Source: Bacteroidetes bacterium HGW-Bacteroidetes-21 (GTDB lineage Bacteria > Bacteroidota > Bacteroidia > Bacteroidales > GWA2-32-17). From it: a DNA stretch of 32,677 nucleotides. Of the stretch, positions 9,577 to 17,494 are shown piece after piece. Under the pieces are notes generated by a model. The model did not search any database, was not told the origin of the DNA, and worked only from the letters and a program-made list of their open reading frames with translations. Each line of letters starts with the position of its first letter. The stretch's first letter is position 1. Where the stretch lies: positions 1-32,677 of the forward strand of contig PHDH01000014.1 in NCBI GenBank assembly GCA_002840935.1, written 5' to 3'. The position numbers and the translations under genes were made by a program.

Positions 9577-9657
9577 ATTTTTTTATTTTAAAGTTAGGGC
9601 TTTATCAGTTTCAACAATTATTAATATATGTCAAATCAGTAAAGGGAAATAAAAAAT

Positions 9658-9754
9658 GGGTAAGCTACTTATATCGCACCGCTACAACCGCCTACCCTTG
9701 CTTCCTTCCGGACCTGGGGGGATTCAGCAGGAGCTGGTCGTATAAGACTTACCC
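9658..9754 (-). ncRNA. ffs: Small signal recognition particle RNA (4.5S type)
   Basis: Read on the minus strand this ~97-nt segment has the universally conserved SRP domain IV core CAGGTCCGGAAGGAAGCA, with the GGAA tetraloop and the asymmetric internal loop that bind Ffh. The ends pair (GGGTAAG at 9754-9748 with CTTACCC at 9664-9658), and further pairing (CTTATA with TATAAG) continues the long single hairpin typical of short bacterial SRP RNA. The 3' end runs into ATTTTTTATTT, a transcription stop. It has its own promoter. The RNA joins Ffh to target membrane proteins to FtsY and SecYEG. The exact mature ends are inferred from the closing helix. Confidence 0.95.
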
Positions 9755-9758
9755 GCTG

Positions 9759-9766
9759 CAAAGGTA
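9759..9766 (-). promoter_or_regulatory. -7 element of the SRP RNA promoter
   Basis: TACCTTTG on the minus strand matches TAnnTTTG exactly and ends 4 nt before the predicted first base of the RNA. A TTG lies 21 nt further upstream (on the minus strand GTTGATTTTG...), suitable as the -33 element. The spacing between motif and RNA end supports both calls. Confidence 0.75.
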
Positions 9767-11444: not shown

Positions 11445-13898
11445 TTACTCTCCCATATCTATCGATTCCGATTCCATTTCCGAACGACCTTTTTTCTCGC
11501 GTTGTTTATTTCCTTCGTTCAGGCGGTAGGAGAAAGTCAGGAATACCACCCTGCTCTCGCGTTTAAACACCATGTTGCCAACCAAATCCGACTCGGTGGT
11601 TCTAATTTTAAACTCCATGGTATTGAAAATATCGCTCATTCGCAGAGACAAAGATGCTTTACGATCCCAAAAATCTTTTCTAATGGCGGCATCTGTTGTC
11701 CAGAAACCTTCACGTATAGATTGGGGCATGACACTGGGTCCGTTTACCCTGAAATTAATCTGTAGGCTGAAATCTTTGGGCAAAACAAAAGTAGCATTCA
11801 GTTTTCCATCATAACTGTAAATATCATTGGTAAGATCATTTTCTTCGTACGAACCATCAACTGAGGTTTTGTAGCAGGAAAAATCTGCCGCCAGACGAAT
11901 AGGTTTTATGGGCTGATAAGTAATGATAAAGTCAAGACCGTATGATTTTCCACTATTGGCATTGATCATAGTAACAAGAATACCGGGTATAGTATCGTTC
12001 GTAATACGATAGCGGCTTATAATATTCTCAATATTTTTGTAGAAAATTGAGGAAGTAAAGGACACTTTTTTCCAGTCTTTAATATGAGACAGCTCATACG
12101 AATTAATATATTCTGGTTTTAACTGCGGATTCCCCGTACGCAAAGTCAAAGGATCTGACGCATCAATAAAAGGATCCAACGCATGATGATCGGGGCGATT
12201 AATTCTTCGGCTGTAACTCAATTGAACTTTGTTCATGGCAGGAAGTTCATAAGTCATATGTACACTAGGGAAGAAATCTAAATACCCAACATCAAACTTT
12301 TGATTTGTAATAATCTGATTTCCTTGAATCATCGATTGTTCTGCTCTTATCCCAGCCTGCCCAGTAATTTTCTTAAAACTTCCCGAAACAATACCATATC
12401 CAGCATATACCTGATCGGTGTATATAAAGTGATTCGAAAGACTGGTTGCAACATAATCTGTAGTAATTGAATCCAGGTTATAAAATTTATAATCCGTATC
12501 CATCTCCCGAAAAGTCGTTTTTATACCCGTCTCGAGTTTCCACTTTTCATTCAAGGGATGAATGTAATCACTTTGAACAATAAGATTTGTTCTGTCGGAA
12601 ACTGTCTGTGATAATTGGTCCTGACCAGAAATTGACGGATAATTGTAATCTTCATAGAAATACTCATCTTCAGAAAACTTGCCAAAAGTATAATAAACAT
12701 CTGCTGTCAATTCCTGAATTGGACGGGAAAATCTTTTTCTATAGCTCAGATTCAAATCAGCATTAGTATTATTATCCACGGGAGAATCTTCATACCTTTT
12801 ATAATCACTTAAGACCTGCATATTATAATCTTTAATAAGGTAGTTCCCATCCGAGGTACCAGGATGCCCACCAGTTCTGAAATTACCAGAAAAAGTCAGG
12901 GTATTCATGGGGTTAAAATCATAATCGAGTCCCCCTTTAAAAGAATGGGATAATATATCACGGGTTGTTTTTGCGTTAATATCATAATAAGTAGCTGTGT
13001 CATTGCGATACATAGTGCGATACTGTGAGCGGGATCCGTTTCTTTCTTCTGATCTGAAGTCATATCCTCCAAAAAAGTTGAACTTATTCACCCGGTAATT
13101 TAAACTCACCGAGGCATTGTATTTATTCCAGGTGCCTATGCCAACAGAAGCAAGGCCGTTTAATCCATTGCGCTTTTCTTTTTTGGTTATAATATTTAAA
13201 ATCCCCGTCATTCCCTCGGGATCGTATTTTGCAGATGGATTGGTAATAAGCTCTATACTTTGGACCGAACTAGCAGGAATTTGCTCCAGGGCATCGGCAG
13301 CAGAAGAAGCCAAAGGCGCAGGTTTGCCATCAATTAGTATTCTGACATTGGTACTACCTCTAAGACTGACATTGCCATCCATATCGACAGAAACAGCCGG
13401 GGTATTTCGCAATATATCTGTGGCCGAGCCACCCGTGGTTACAATATTCTGCTCTACATTAATTACCTTTTTATCGAGATTAAATTCAACCAATGGTTTC
13501 TGATCAACAACATTAACTTCGCCCAACTGCTGAACAAATCCTTCAAGTTTAATTACACCCACATTAACCTGAGGTGTTTTGGGGGTCACCATTACATCGC
13601 CAGAATATCTGTTATACCCGATAAAATCAACTTTCAAAAAATATTTTCCACCAGGCACATCTTTCATTGTAAAATATCCTTTGGCATCACTAATGGTTCC
13701 AGAAACCAAAGAAGTATCTTTCATTTTGTATATCGAAATACTGGCATATTCTACGGGCTTATTACTTTTCTTGTCTAGAATCTGTCCCGAAATCTCTCCT
13801 TTAAAATCACCATTTGGTCCTCCCCCTCCGGGTCTTTGCGCAATCAACGAACTACTTGTCAATAATATAACTAAAATACTATAGGCTAAAATTTTCAT
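11445..13898 (-). CDS. Outer-membrane beta-barrel protein with CarboxypepD_reg-like and plug domains (TonB-receptor-like)
   Basis: An 817-residue secreted protein. After the signal peptide (MKILAYSILVILLTSSSLIAQ) comes a glycine-rich RPGGGGPNGDF stretch, then a CarboxypepD_reg-like Ig fold (~32-115: GEISGQILDKKSNKPVEYAS, SDAKGYFTMKDVPGGKYFL). Next is a plug-like domain (~125-235: TDILRNTPAVSVDMDGNVSL, IPASSVQSIELITNPSAKYD) and a large C-terminal barrel with alternating aromatic strands ending in ...RVVFLTFSYRLNEGNKQ. This is the layout of Bacteroidota TonB-dependent-receptor-like outer-membrane proteins. No SusD partner is adjacent, so it is not a SusCD pair and its ligand is unknown. The charged C-terminal tail (EKKGRSEMESESIDMGE) extends past the last strand, which is unusual for a barrel whose final strand normally ends the protein. 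Confidence 0.88.
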   Translation of the reverse strand: MKILAYSILVILLTSSSLIAQRPGGGGPNGDFKGEISGQILDKKSNKPVEYASISIYKMKDTSLVSGTISDAKGYFTMKDVPGGKYFLKVDFIGYNRYSGDVMVTPKTPQVNVGVIKLEGFVQQLGEVNVVDQKPLVEFNLDKKVINVEQNIVTTGGSATDILRNTPAVSVDMDGNVSLRGSTNVRILIDGKPAPLASSAADALEQIPASSVQSIELITNPSAKYDPEGMTGILNIITKKEKRNGLNGLASVGIGTWNKYNASVSLNYRVNKFNFFGGYDFRSEERNGSRSQYRTMYRNDTATYYDINAKTTRDILSHSFKGGLDYDFNPMNTLTFSGNFRTGGHPGTSDGNYLIKDYNMQVLSDYKRYEDSPVDNNTNADLNLSYRKRFSRPIQELTADVYYTFGKFSEDEYFYEDYNYPSISGQDQLSQTVSDRTNLIVQSDYIHPLNEKWKLETGIKTTFREMDTDYKFYNLDSITTDYVATSLSNHFIYTDQVYAGYGIVSGSFKKITGQAGIRAEQSMIQGNQIITNQKFDVGYLDFFPSVHMTYELPAMNKVQLSYSRRINRPDHHALDPFIDASDPLTLRTGNPQLKPEYINSYELSHIKDWKKVSFTSSIFYKNIENIISRYRITNDTIPGILVTMINANSGKSYGLDFIITYQPIKPIRLAADFSCYKTSVDGSYEENDLTNDIYSYDGKLNATFVLPKDFSLQINFRVNGPSVMPQSIREGFWTTDAAIRKDFWDRKASLSLRMSDIFNTMEFKIRTTESDLVGNMVFKRESRVVFLTFSYRLNEGNKQREKKGRSEMESESIDMGE

Positions 13899-13951: not shown

Positions 13952-14007
13952 AAATATTGTGGCATCAAAATTGCTTGTACCTATGCTTTTTAACTAAAAT
14001 ATTTTTT

Positions 14008-14994
14008 ATGAAAAAATCAGGACTCTGGCTTATACTGCTTTCTTTTCTGAGCTTTTCGAGCGTCTTTGCTCAAAAGGGTGATGCCGAAGTAAGAATCAAT
14101 ATGCGCGATGGCAGTATATATAATGGTACGGTAAAAGTAATGAATATTGAACTGACGTCCGATTATGGCAAATTGTCTATTCCTTTTGCAGACATTTCGC
14201 AGATAGAACTGGGAATTATTCCTGAAAAGAAGAATAAAACTAAAATTGATTTTCAGCTGAAGCAATTATTGAACGAAGAAGAAACGACACGTCAAAATGC
14301 ATACGAAGAGCTGATGAAAATGGAAATTGGCGAGATTTATTTAGTCGAAGACTTTATCTCCTCCGAATCCTATACTATGGTCGAAGGAATATATACAGCC
14401 GACGAACTTTTATCGGAGATAATGCTAAAATACGGAGTAAAGGAACTCGTTCCTTACGATATGATAAGTTTCGGGACATCCTTTTCCATGGGAGGCATTT
14501 CTTCTTTCCAGAATGTAACGTTAAAGACCGAATTTGGCATGTTGACCATTCCCCGCAATAAGATAGAAACTTTTGAAGTGGTTTATGTCCCAGGCGAAAA
14601 TCAAAATAATCAGAAAAATATTATTTTACAGGCATCCAAGCACATTTCGGGCAATGTAAATGGAGGTTGGTTAAACACAGGCATCATTGTAAAAAAGGGA
14701 CAAAAAATTCAGATTACAGCCCGAGGATCTATCACACTGGCCAGTCTTTCTAACGCGAAATATACTCCAGACGGTCCCGAAGGAACAGCAAAAGCTGCCT
14801 ATACATACGAAGGAGCCTATCCGCAATACGGTATGGTAGTATATAAAGTAGGCGAACAAGGAAGCATGATTTCTGCCGGCAGCAAGTATTCCGGCTCGGT
14901 AAAAGACAGTGGCGTTCTTTATATATCAATCTACGAGACTGTTTACAATGCAGCCAATACAGGAACTTACAACGTAACCATTAAGGCTTTTTAG
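14008..14994 (+). CDS. Exported protein with paired small beta domains and a C-terminal LecA (PA-IL)-like domain
   Basis: I start this at ATG 14008 because it begins the signal peptide MKKSGLWLILLSFLSFSSVFAQ; the track's 13957 start adds an unlikely extension. The mature 328 residues have three parts. First, a segment of the type MRDGSIYNGTVKV...YGKLSIPFADISQIELG (~31-68), repeated later as VTLKTEFGMLTIPRNKIETFEV (~171-192), which looks like two small barrels. Second, a helical stretch between them (QLKQLLNEEETTRQNAYEEL). Third, residues ~208-328, with WLNTGIIVKKGQKIQITARG, YTPDGPEG, YGMVVYKVGEQG and LYISIYETVYNAANTGTYNVTI. This third part resembles the PA-IL/LecA galactophilic lectin fold (PxGDxI.., MKIG, the Ca-site loop and final SFSVNI strand). 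Sugar binding is unproven, because the LecA Asp100 position appears as Glu here. Confidence 0.7.
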   Translation: MKKSGLWLILLSFLSFSSVFAQKGDAEVRINMRDGSIYNGTVKVMNIELTSDYGKLSIPFADISQIELGIIPEKKNKTKIDFQLKQLLNEEETTRQNAYEELMKMEIGEIYLVEDFISSESYTMVEGIYTADELLSEIMLKYGVKELVPYDMISFGTSFSMGGISSFQNVTLKTEFGMLTIPRNKIETFEVVYVPGENQNNQKNIILQASKHISGNVNGGWLNTGIIVKKGQKIQITARGSITLASLSNAKYTPDGPEGTAKAAYTYEGAYPQYGMVVYKVGEQGSMISAGSKYSGSVKDSGVLYISIYETVYNAANTGTYNVTIKAF

Positions 14995-15013: not shown

Positions 15014-15046
15014 TTTGTATTATTCGTCTAAATTGTTTTACATTTG
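15014..15046 (+). promoter_or_regulatory. Promoter for the first shared-domain lipoprotein gene
   Basis: TTTG at 15014-15017 and TACATTTG at 15039-15046 are spaced by 21 nt, matching the Bacteroidota -33/-7 pair. The start would be near 15052, about 24 nt before ATG 15076. Confidence 0.7.
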
Positions 15047-15075: not shown

Positions 15076-15975
15076 ATGAAAAAAATCAAATTATTTGCTT
15101 TATTGCTCCTCGCAGGCGCAACAGTATTTACAAGTTGTAAAAAAGATGAAGAAACCGGACCTGCTCCAACTTTAACTTTTTCGAACTATCCTGCTGGCTC
15201 ATATGAAATCGATTTCGCTACCTTAGGTGCTACTACTTTCGATCTTTCTTTCGTAGTTTCAGTAACTGCCGAAGAAGAAATTTCTGCTTTCACAGCTAAA
15301 AAAACTGTAGGTGGTACAACAACTAACCTTACAGCTCCTGCTGATTTTTCTGGAAAAACCAGTTACTCATATAGCTATCTTGGTACATTCACCGAAACTG
15401 ACGTTTATCCTGTAAGCCTCGTTTTCACTTGTACTGACAAAGCTGATCAGGTAACTACCAAAACTTTCACAGTAACTAAGAAAACCGGAACAACACCTAA
15501 TCCTATTAATACTTTCACCGGTATTTCTTTAACTTCTGCTTACAGTGCTCCTACTGCTGCTGAATATGTTGCTGCAATAACTGGCGTAACTTATAATCAT
15601 ACTGCTGCAGGTGCTGCTTCATTTGGATTTGTAAGTGGTGGTGCTACCAATGGCGCAACTATCTTTACCAAAGGTTTTGATTTTACTTTATCATCAGTTC
15701 CTGCAACATGGAACAATCAGTCATATGTTAAAGAAACAAATTTAGATGCTGCTGCATTTGATGCAATTACAGATGAAGACGCTCTTCTTGCTGCCTTCCC
15801 TGCTGCTTTCACTCAGACAAAAGTAAATACTCTTCAGGATGGTGCTGCTAACGCAGGTGTTACAGTTATTGCTTTCATCGATGGCAGTGGTAAAAAAGGT
15901 TTTGCTAAATTACCCGCTTCAATGGACAATACAGCTGGACAGGTTATTTCTATCAGCATTAAAGTTCAACAGTAA
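15076..15975 (+). CDS. Lipoprotein with an unrecognised conserved C-terminal domain (paralogue 1)
   Basis: A 299-residue protein. The type II signal peptide ends at a lipobox (TVFTSCKKDEE, Cys ~21), and the following KKDEE is neutral on surface export. Residues ~30-135 are a beta-rich, Thr-rich domain that looks Ig/PKD-like (PTLTFSNYPAGSYEIDFATL; YPVSLVFTCTDKADQVTTKTFTV). Residues ~146-299 are the domain shared with the next gene: GISLTSAYSAP, GVTYNH, ATNGATIFTKGFDF, FDAITDEDALLAAFP, VNTLQDGAANAG, VIAFIDGSGKKGFAKL and a final ISIKVQQ. I do not recognise this domain. Alanine is frequent and codon use is biased toward GCT/ACT, suggesting good expression. It has its own promoter and a strong terminator, so it is monocistronic. 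Confidence 0.85.
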   Translation: MKKIKLFALLLLAGATVFTSCKKDEETGPAPTLTFSNYPAGSYEIDFATLGATTFDLSFVVSVTAEEEISAFTAKKTVGGTTTNLTAPADFSGKTSYSYSYLGTFTETDVYPVSLVFTCTDKADQVTTKTFTVTKKTGTTPNPINTFTGISLTSAYSAPTAAEYVAAITGVTYNHTAAGAASFGFVSGGATNGATIFTKGFDFTLSSVPATWNNQSYVKETNLDAAAFDAITDEDALLAAFPAAFTQTKVNTLQDGAANAGVTVIAFIDGSGKKGFAKLPASMDNTAGQVISISIKVQQ

Positions 15976-16000
15976 TCTACTGTTTTAATATTTTGTAAAA

Positions 16001-16025
16001 GGCTGCCACAAGGCGGCCTTTTTTT
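16001..16025 (+). terminator. Rho-independent terminator of lipoprotein paralogue 1
   Basis: GGCTGCC/GGCGGCC, a 7-bp stem with one G-T wobble, and loop ACAA (16001-16018) followed by TTTTTTT. It is 25 nt after the stop and nearly the same as the terminator of the next gene at 17301, as though the 3' ends were duplicated together with the coding domain. Confidence 0.9.
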
Positions 16026-16046
16026 ATTTGTTATTACAATTTTATT

Positions 16047-16054
16047 TATATTTG
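16047..16054 (+). promoter_or_regulatory. -7 element for the second shared-domain lipoprotein gene
   Basis: TATATTTG matches TAnnTTTG, 28 nt before ATG 16083. TTG at 16028-16030 lies 16 nt upstream, shorter than normal, so the -33 element is uncertain. Confidence 0.55.
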
Positions 16055-16082
16055 CTTTCTAATAATGTTATAATTTAAATTT

Positions 16083-17273
16083 ATGAAAAAGCAAAATCTA
16101 CTCTTTTTAATCATTTATCCAATTACATTTCTGTTTTTGATCTTTACAGGTTGCAAAAAAGACGATGACGATGAGACCAACGATCCTACTCCAAGACAAA
16201 TAGTGGTTAGTACTTCTGCTATTTCAAATCTAACGACAACTTCAGCTACCTGCGGTGGGAATATTACTGATGATGGTGGCGCCATGATTACAATAAGAGG
16301 AGTATGCTGGAACACAAATCCGGACCCAACCATTAATGACAATTCAACATCCAACGGATCTGGATCTGGATTATTTAACAGTTCGTTAACCGGTTTAACT
16401 CCAAACACCCAATATTATATTAGAGCATACGCTATAAACACAAACGGAACTGTGTACGGAAATACTTTAACTTTCACTACAGTTGAAGCAACTTTACCTG
16501 AATTAAGCACAACAAATATTAGCAGTATTTCATTTACATCTGCTACATGTTCTGTACAGATAACATCCGATGGTGGACTTCCATTAAATTCAAAAGGGAT
16601 TTGCTGGAGTACTTATCCTACACCCGATATTAATAGCACTATAGTTACAAACTCTTCAACTTCTGAATCATTCTCTTGTAACATTTCAGGATTAGCTCCT
16701 AATACTGTTTACTACGCCAGAGCCTATGCTACAAATAGCGTAGGAACAGGCTATGGAAGCATACTATCTTTCACTACACTAGATTATTCTGGATCAATAA
16801 ATTTCTTTAGCAGCATTTCGTTAACATCCGCCTATTTAGCACCTAGCTCTTCTGAATATGTAAATGCAGTAACCGGGGTCACATATAATCATGCTGCTTC
16901 CGGTTCAAATAATGCAACTTTTGGATTTATCAGTGGTGGTGTTTCTAATGGCGCTACTTTGTATACAAAAAGTACTGATATGACTATATCAGCTACTCCC
17001 AACCCATGGACAAATGAATCCTACCTAGCTGCAACAACATTAACCGAAAGCGAATTTGATGCTATTACTGACGGCGCAGATCTATTGACTGCAATGCCTT
17101 CAATAATAAACGCATCAAAGGTGAATAATCTTCAGGATGGTGCTACAAATTCTAGTGTTAGAGTTATTGCTTTTATTGATGGAAGTGGTAAAAAAGGACT
17201 TATTAAAATTCCAGAATCTATTACTAATAATAACGATCAGGTTCTAACTATCAGCATTAAAGTTCAACAGTAA
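16083..17273 (+). CDS. Lipoprotein with two FnIII-like repeats and the shared C-terminal domain (paralogue 2)
   Basis: A 396-residue protein with a type II signal peptide and lipobox (LIFTGCKKDDDDE, Cys ~24). Two fibronectin-III-like repeats of about 90 residues follow (~40-132 and ~137-230). Each has the pattern TSATCGGNITDDGG, GVCWNTNPDPTI, LTGLTPNTQYYIRAYAINTNG...TFTT, repeated as TSATCSVQITSDGG, GICWSTYPTPDI, ISGLAPNTVYYARAYATNSVG...SFTT. The C-terminal ~150 residues (ISLTSAYLAP, GVTYNHAASGS, FDAITDGADLLTAMP, VIAFIDGSGKKGLIKI, ISIKVQQ) are homologous to the upstream lipoprotein's domain. So the same end domain is mounted on two different stalks. Surface display through the lipid anchor is likely, and the FnIII repeats suggest an extracellular spacer. 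Function is unknown. Confidence 0.85.
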   Translation: MKKQNLLFLIIYPITFLFLIFTGCKKDDDDETNDPTPRQIVVSTSAISNLTTTSATCGGNITDDGGAMITIRGVCWNTNPDPTINDNSTSNGSGSGLFNSSLTGLTPNTQYYIRAYAINTNGTVYGNTLTFTTVEATLPELSTTNISSISFTSATCSVQITSDGGLPLNSKGICWSTYPTPDINSTIVTNSSTSESFSCNISGLAPNTVYYARAYATNSVGTGYGSILSFTTLDYSGSINFFSSISLTSAYLAPSSSEYVNAVTGVTYNHAASGSNNATFGFISGGVSNGATLYTKSTDMTISATPNPWTNESYLAATTLTESEFDAITDGADLLTAMPSIINASKVNNLQDGATNSSVRVIAFIDGSGKKGLIKIPESITNNNDQVLTISIKVQQ

Positions 17274-17300
17274 TATGCTGCTTCAATATTTTGAAAAAAA

Positions 17301-17325
17301 GGCTGCCTTGAGGCAGCCTTTTTTT
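17301..17325 (+). terminator. Rho-independent terminator of lipoprotein paralogue 2
   Basis: A perfect 7-bp stem GGCTGCC/GGCAGCC with loop TTGA followed by seven Ts, and preceded by seven As, so it could also stop minus-strand transcripts. It lies 28 nt after the stop codon. Confidence 0.92.
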
Positions 17326-17355
17326 GTTTAGAATTCAGTATGTGTGATGAAGTAT

Positions 17356-17419
17356 GAGGTTCGTCGGGTATACTTCGCAAAGCTTCGTACCCTGAAAGGG
17401 ACGAACCTCCAGTGGGAGG
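17356..17419. repeat. REP-like nested inverted repeat upstream of sucA
   Basis: GAGGTTCGTC (17356-17365) pairs perfectly with GACGAACCTC (17400-17409). Inside it GGGTA (17366-17370) pairs with TACCC (17388-17392), which encloses TACTTCGCAAAGCTTCG. Overlapping the right arm is a second small hairpin, CCTCC AGTG GGAGG (17406-17419). There is no T-run, and a good terminator already lies upstream, so this is more likely a REP-type element than a terminator. The small minus-strand ORF here is an artefact of the repeat. Confidence 0.65.
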
Positions 17420-17494
17420 ATGGGGATTGTCGTTAATTTTTCCAAAAAAGAGCATTAGTTTATAATTTGTCTAAATTAGAACAACTATTTTGTT

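Follow-up and report, generated by a model that had tools for sequence, protein, structure and literature searches.

The window, that is, the whole stretch of 32,677 nucleotides that was analyzed, is contig C13 of a 3.9 Mb genome that is 88% complete and split into 326 contigs. Two lipoprotein genes, A and B, lie there in tandem on the forward strand. Gene A (15076–15975) encodes 299 residues, with the lipobox Cys21 followed by KKDEE. Its stalk (15160–15495), a single Ig-like beta-sandwich according to the AF2 model, is orthologous to stalks of the same family in sequence comparisons and in the tree, and it is followed by a C-terminal HmuY/DUF4466-like domain (15496–15972), as indicated by sequence, profile and model comparisons, and then by a 3' UTR with an intrinsic terminator (15976–16029). 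Gene B (16083–17273) encodes 396 residues, with KKDDD after the lipobox Cys, and combines a stalk of two FnIII modules (16179–16787; Pfam fn3 with 33.9 bits over 2 stretches and an N-terminal match to NCBIfam NF049889 with 103 bits) with the same kind of C-terminal domain (16788–17270), the C-domain in what follows, and a 3' UTR and intrinsic terminator homologous to those of A (17274–17329).

Bacteroidetes promoters follow the consensus TTTG/TAnnTTTG, and a pattern search with this consensus found 9 promoter-like sites in the window against 3.0 expected. One of them precedes each gene on the plus strand: TTTG-N21-TACATTTG at 15014–15046 for A, and TTTG-N16-TATATTTG at 16027–16054 for B, the latter beginning where the terminator of A ends. 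The gene upstream of A (13957–14994) is conserved, with 48–50% identity, in three genomes of the same family, where it lies in synteny with genes of the A type; it had no match in Pfam, NCBIfam or the PDB, and its C-terminal part resembles a secreted beta domain. Further upstream, a TonB-type protein (11445–13898) is encoded on the strand opposite to A and B and differs in type from the receptors linked to one clade of relatives, described below. An Rfam scan of the window returned a single RNA, an SRP RNA of the Bacteroidales small kind on the minus strand (9654–9761; RF04183, 108.7 bits), which marks the genome as being of Bacteroidales type. Between the terminator of B and sucA we also noticed an imperfect inverted repeat (17333–17440; GGTTCGTC ... 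GACGAACC), possibly the remnant of a small repeat element.

The original prediction described A and B as tandem lipoproteins with a homologous C-terminal domain, different N-terminal parts and similarity continuing past the stop codon into GGCTGCC-type terminators, and all of this was borne out. The C-domains, of about 156–158 residues, align by BLASTP from residue 144 of A and residue 239 of B up to the last residue with 93 of 158 positions identical (59%, E 9e-61), while the stalks are of different kinds. A local DNA alignment gave the break points: similarity starts at the domain boundary, crosses the stop codon and stops just past the T-run of the terminator. A stretch of 25 nucleotides, ATCAGCATTAAAGTTCAACAGTAAT, is identical in both genes, and 42 of 50 positions are identical in the region after the stop codon, including the terminator (84%).

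As GGCTGCC-type stems recur in the genome, the stem alone proves little; the exact stem motif was found at three sites only, those of A and B and one 3' of a uvrA-like gene on C113. What makes the homology of the 3' ends convincing is that the region between stop codon and stem is similar in register, with 17 of 22 positions identical, while the best other terminator-like site reached 11 of 22 in a control on 257 kb of the same genome from which the sites of A and B were excluded and in which the start of the stem was only approximated. In a control by alignment score, the best non-self match of the terminator of A was that of B. Domain, stop codon, 3' UTR and terminator were thus duplicated as one unit, as had been proposed, and these data support it. 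On the contrary, the duplication is not recent as had been supposed: dS is about 1.0 and dN 0.30 (NG86), and only 20 of 39 four-fold sites in the domain are identical (51%), so that the duplication is old and has been under purifying selection.

The four-fold sites are significantly less conserved than the region after the stop codon (20/39 against 42/50; Fisher p 0.001), and this excess, which takes in the last eight codons together with the 3' UTR, would be expected if gene conversion between A and B kept their 3' ends alike. The pair would then be perhaps older than it appears and the terminator a conversion tract. We hold this to be possible, if rather unlikely, because selection on terminator function could likewise preserve the stem, and only one such pair is known. 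The family search returned no second genome of the genus to which the window genome belongs. Elsewhere, a much younger tandem duplication was seen at L175, where whole family genes including the signal peptide are repeated (1006–1914 and 1939–2853).

We also asked which part of these proteins moves, as the original prediction had invoked a swap of the N-terminal stalk. The stalk of A is 60% identical to that of a relative in genome G007, and in the stalk tree the members from the family of the window genome stand together, with A joined to L024 (SH-aLRT 96). The C-domain tree is different: A and B are joined with L032, from another family (support 100), while L024 groups with L030 and L031 (100). 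AU tests agreed with this conflict, even if the groups were partly picked after the trees had been seen: the C-domain data rejected A with L024 (p 4e-6) and L029 with L030 and L031 (p 2e-5), and the stalk data rejected A with L032 (p 2e-4) and L024 with L030 and L031 (p 3e-4). Considering that the stalk and the upstream neighbor of A are those of its family, whereas the C-domain of A falls with those of B and L032, the C-domain is the moved part in A. The predicted swap is therefore right in that the two stalks differ over a common C-domain, and wrong for A in the part that moved. In B the same C-domain is carried by the FnIII stalk, for which the best candidate donor in its own genome reached at most 32% identity.

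A second case comes from two congeneric draft genomes, G009 (L029) and G008 (L031), whose flanks are mostly 85–95% identical in DNA. Conservation between the two loci extends to the genes on both sides, the promoter region, the signal peptide and the terminator; the mature stalk is less conserved than the flanks, and the C-domains have no detectable similarity. Judged from these sequences, in-place replacement of a cassette would be the natural reading. Together with the conflict between the stalk and C-domain trees, this case suggests that the moving part is usually the C-domain and not the stalk. The flanks of both loci contain a large secreted endopeptidase-like gene and p13957 upstream, and a gene for a very large repeat protein downstream.

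The same conflict could in principle arise without recombination, from very unequal rates, if C-domains diverged beyond detection while stalks and flanks stayed alike. This would fit with the mature N-terminal domain also being less conserved than the flanks, and with the C-domain data not rejecting a clade of all four members of genus g3 (p 0.57). We nonetheless regard it as very improbable, since the C-domains of L024, L030 and L031 are still 43–76% identical to each other. Moreover, L024 shares 50% stalk identity with L031 and L029 shares 63%, yet it is the C-domain of L029 that has no similarity to that of L031 (z about 3 or less), and the C-domain of A is closer to that of another family than to those of its own. 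Replacement of the C-domain is thus the reading that we retain.

Relatives are spread over the phylum. A single-sequence search (E 0.01) found matches in 18 of 393 genomes at the order level, and a domain profile (0.001) showed that the domain is carried by 69 of 395 genomes at the class level, including 62 of the 338 good Bacteroidia genomes. At the phylum level, a full-length profile (1e-5) matched 30 of 396 genomes, a figure that is not a count of C-domains as some matches covered the Ig-like part only. In the window genome, the search for further copies returned no close member besides A and B, but it did return one very divergent member with two Ig-like modules, on C150. In four genomes from another part of the phylum, the family gene lies 3' of a conserved same-strand run of genes for an ABC ATPase, a protein of 677 residues and, between them, a small lipoprotein.

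In nearly all members seen, the domain is located at the C-terminus, and what precedes it varies widely. A and most relatives have one Ig-like module, L079 has two and L132 three; three members have no stalk, two have three PKD modules, and L181 has an SprB-type module. Two FnIII modules are found in B and in L216, where the assignment was made from the sequence and from subthreshold Pfam matches. The C-domain of L216 shares 53% identity with that of a one-Ig relative of its own family, against 41% with that of B, which also scored far lower. As it groups with its own family and not with B, the combination of FnIII and C-domain arose at least 2 times.

What the domain is was addressed with structure and profile comparisons. 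Its AlphaFold model (pLDDT 89, pTM 0.87) was compared with the PDB by Foldseek, and 7 of the 8 best matches were HmuY-family proteins (8B6A, 6EU8, 6R2H, 6EWM and 3H8T; best E 8e-3, prob 0.98), with TM about 0.45–0.5 and none passing E 0.001. For the full-length model of A, the sole significant PDB match was 4EI0, a DUF4466 protein (E 6.6e-9, two chains), with a TM of only 0.39, owing to a domain orientation that is either different or poorly predicted; 4EI0 was absent from the 50 best matches of the C-domain alone. A PDB search by sequence gave Ig-like matches only for the stalk and none for the C-domain. A phage tail-fiber origin was not indicated, as the viral structure library gave no significant match.

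Profile comparisons pointed to the same two families. By hhalign, the C-domain matched the C-terminal half of DUF4466 with P 1e-8 over 142 columns, a value that depends on the alignment, since another alignment gave P 6e-4 and the larger one P 1e-8; the full-length family profile matched DUF4466 with P 5.6e-10. The comparison with the HmuY profile gave P 7.7e-5 and a score of 34.5, against at most 20.2 in 30 column shuffles, and at normal stringency this match covers the last 40 residues only. In the comparisons with both families, reversed and shuffled controls scored far below the real profiles. In direct Pfam searches, no family member reached the PF14725 cut-off of 25 bits: the best genome match had 22.3 bits, A and B had none, and 5 of 53 relatives had weak ones (best E 1.1e-4). 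PF14064 had no match in the window genome (G000) and none among the Pfam matches of the 53 relatives. We also looked for a conserved His, Met or Cys column, and none reached 25% in the family. This weighs against HmuY membership without excluding it, as axial heme ligands vary among known HmuY proteins (PMC6200708).

Judged from these profiles and predicted structures, the C-domain is an unnamed distant relative of HmuY and DUF4466, and we consider it likely that the three are branches of one superfamily. The domain had been called unrecognized; this is correct as to a curated name, with no Pfam or NCBIfam family above cut-off for A, B or their relatives, but it does not account for the remote relationship to DUF4466 and HmuY.

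Both A (CKKDEE) and B (CKKDDD) carry after the lipobox the C-X-K-(D/E)2 signal reported to send Bacteroidota lipoproteins to the surface (PMC5080379), so that they are probably surface-exposed lipoproteins of the outer membrane. Among 53 relatives, 22 fit the signal strictly and most others are acidic there. In 11 sampled genomes, a TonB-dependent receptor is encoded on the same strand 3' of a family member, either next to it or after one intervening gene; the two genes overlap or lie within about 100 bp in most cases, and a gene of about 0.9 kb stands between them in two. These receptor-linked members form one clade (SH-aLRT 96), with A and B outside, and several of its genomes have two lipoprotein genes in tandem. 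Three full receptors were tested and all scored best with TIGR01785, the heme/hemoglobin receptors, at about 200–222 bits for a cut-off of 316.85. At the A/B locus, no adjoining receptor of this kind is present. HmuY is a lipoprotein that binds heme and hands it over to HmuR, a TonB-dependent receptor (PMC2671838), and this role is retained even by relatives of HmuY that have diverged strongly (PMC9331221).

By considering the parallel with HmuY, the receptor-linked clade and the export signal of A and B, surface ligand capture would be their most likely role. We favor, with some reservation, a model in which A and B are stalked surface lipoproteins presenting a cassette-like domain of ligand-binding type. 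One Ig-like module in A and two FnIII modules in B would hold the same beta domain, a putative ligand would be captured at the cell surface, and a TonB-dependent receptor would then take it over, in the way that HmuR receives heme from HmuY. At the level of genes, the C-domain behaves as a cassette, exchanged between stalks or replaced in place with the surrounding locus unchanged, and at this locus cassette, stop codon and terminator are present twice, in A and in the adjacent B, and a promoter-like site precedes each of the two genes. That heme would be the ligand for A and B themselves seems doubtful to us.

A different role would be structural or adhesive, with the C-domain at the tip binding a glycan or another cell, and its replacement serving antigenic or phage-receptor diversification instead of nutrient capture. 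The speed at which the entire mature region has diverged although its flanks are almost the same, the recurrence of tandem duplicates and the absence of a conserved metal-ligand residue are all compatible with it, as is the clustering of relatives in three genomes with large secreted adhesin-like proteins. We judge this role unlikely, considering the link of one clade with TonB-dependent receptors and the location of DUF4466 genes, the nearest family, in loci of SusD type that include a polysaccharide lyase-like gene, likewise an uptake context. Ligand capture and hand-over thus remains our preferred role. Going further, and only tentatively, the domain may be a phylum-wide exchangeable ligand-binding cap, swapped in place while signal peptide, stalk, terminator and locus are kept, with one clade acting together with heme-type TonB receptors as a second hemophore-like system, borne on stalks.

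In conclusion, a common unnamed domain of the Bacteroidota can be placed between DUF4466 and HmuY and given a testable role, and many "hypothetical lipoproteins" may thereby be connected with uptake of the TonB-dependent kind. Where flanks are kept at about 90% identity, an in-place exchange of the C-domain would alter binding at the surface with expression and anchoring unchanged. The fold of HmuY was reportedly presented as new in 2009, and the possible ancestry of HmuY becomes directly testable through structure determination.

Among known systems, DUF4466 (PF14725; PDB 4EI0 from Parabacteroides merdae) is like A and B a lipoprotein in which an N-terminal beta domain precedes a homologous C-terminal domain, alignable from end to end, but its genes, at the loci seen, are in SusD-type polysaccharide loci and A and B are not. 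At three such loci, the DUF4466 gene adjoins genes for a SusD-like protein and a small lipoprotein, and two of them also encode a large secreted protein that, by eye, is polysaccharide lyase-like. HmuY (PF14064; PDB 3H8T, 6EU8, 6R2H, 8B6A), of all-beta fold, offers the best PDB fold matches for the C-domain and a profile similarity over the C-terminal hairpin VIAFKTxxGKxGLIKV...G.I...K. It binds heme through His-His or Met-Met axial ligands, whereas the family of A and B has no conserved His or Met column, and the HmuY sequences fetched usually have no Ig or FnIII stalk, unlike A and B. The receptor-linked clade has TonB-dependent receptors as neighbors, in the way that hmuY lies beside hmuR, while no receptor is adjacent to A or B. 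Finally, HfpY of the HfpY-HfpR system of Flavobacterium psychrophilum is a HmuY relative of very low conservation that is co-transcribed with its TonB-dependent receptor and described as a heme-binding member of the HmuY family (PMC9331221).
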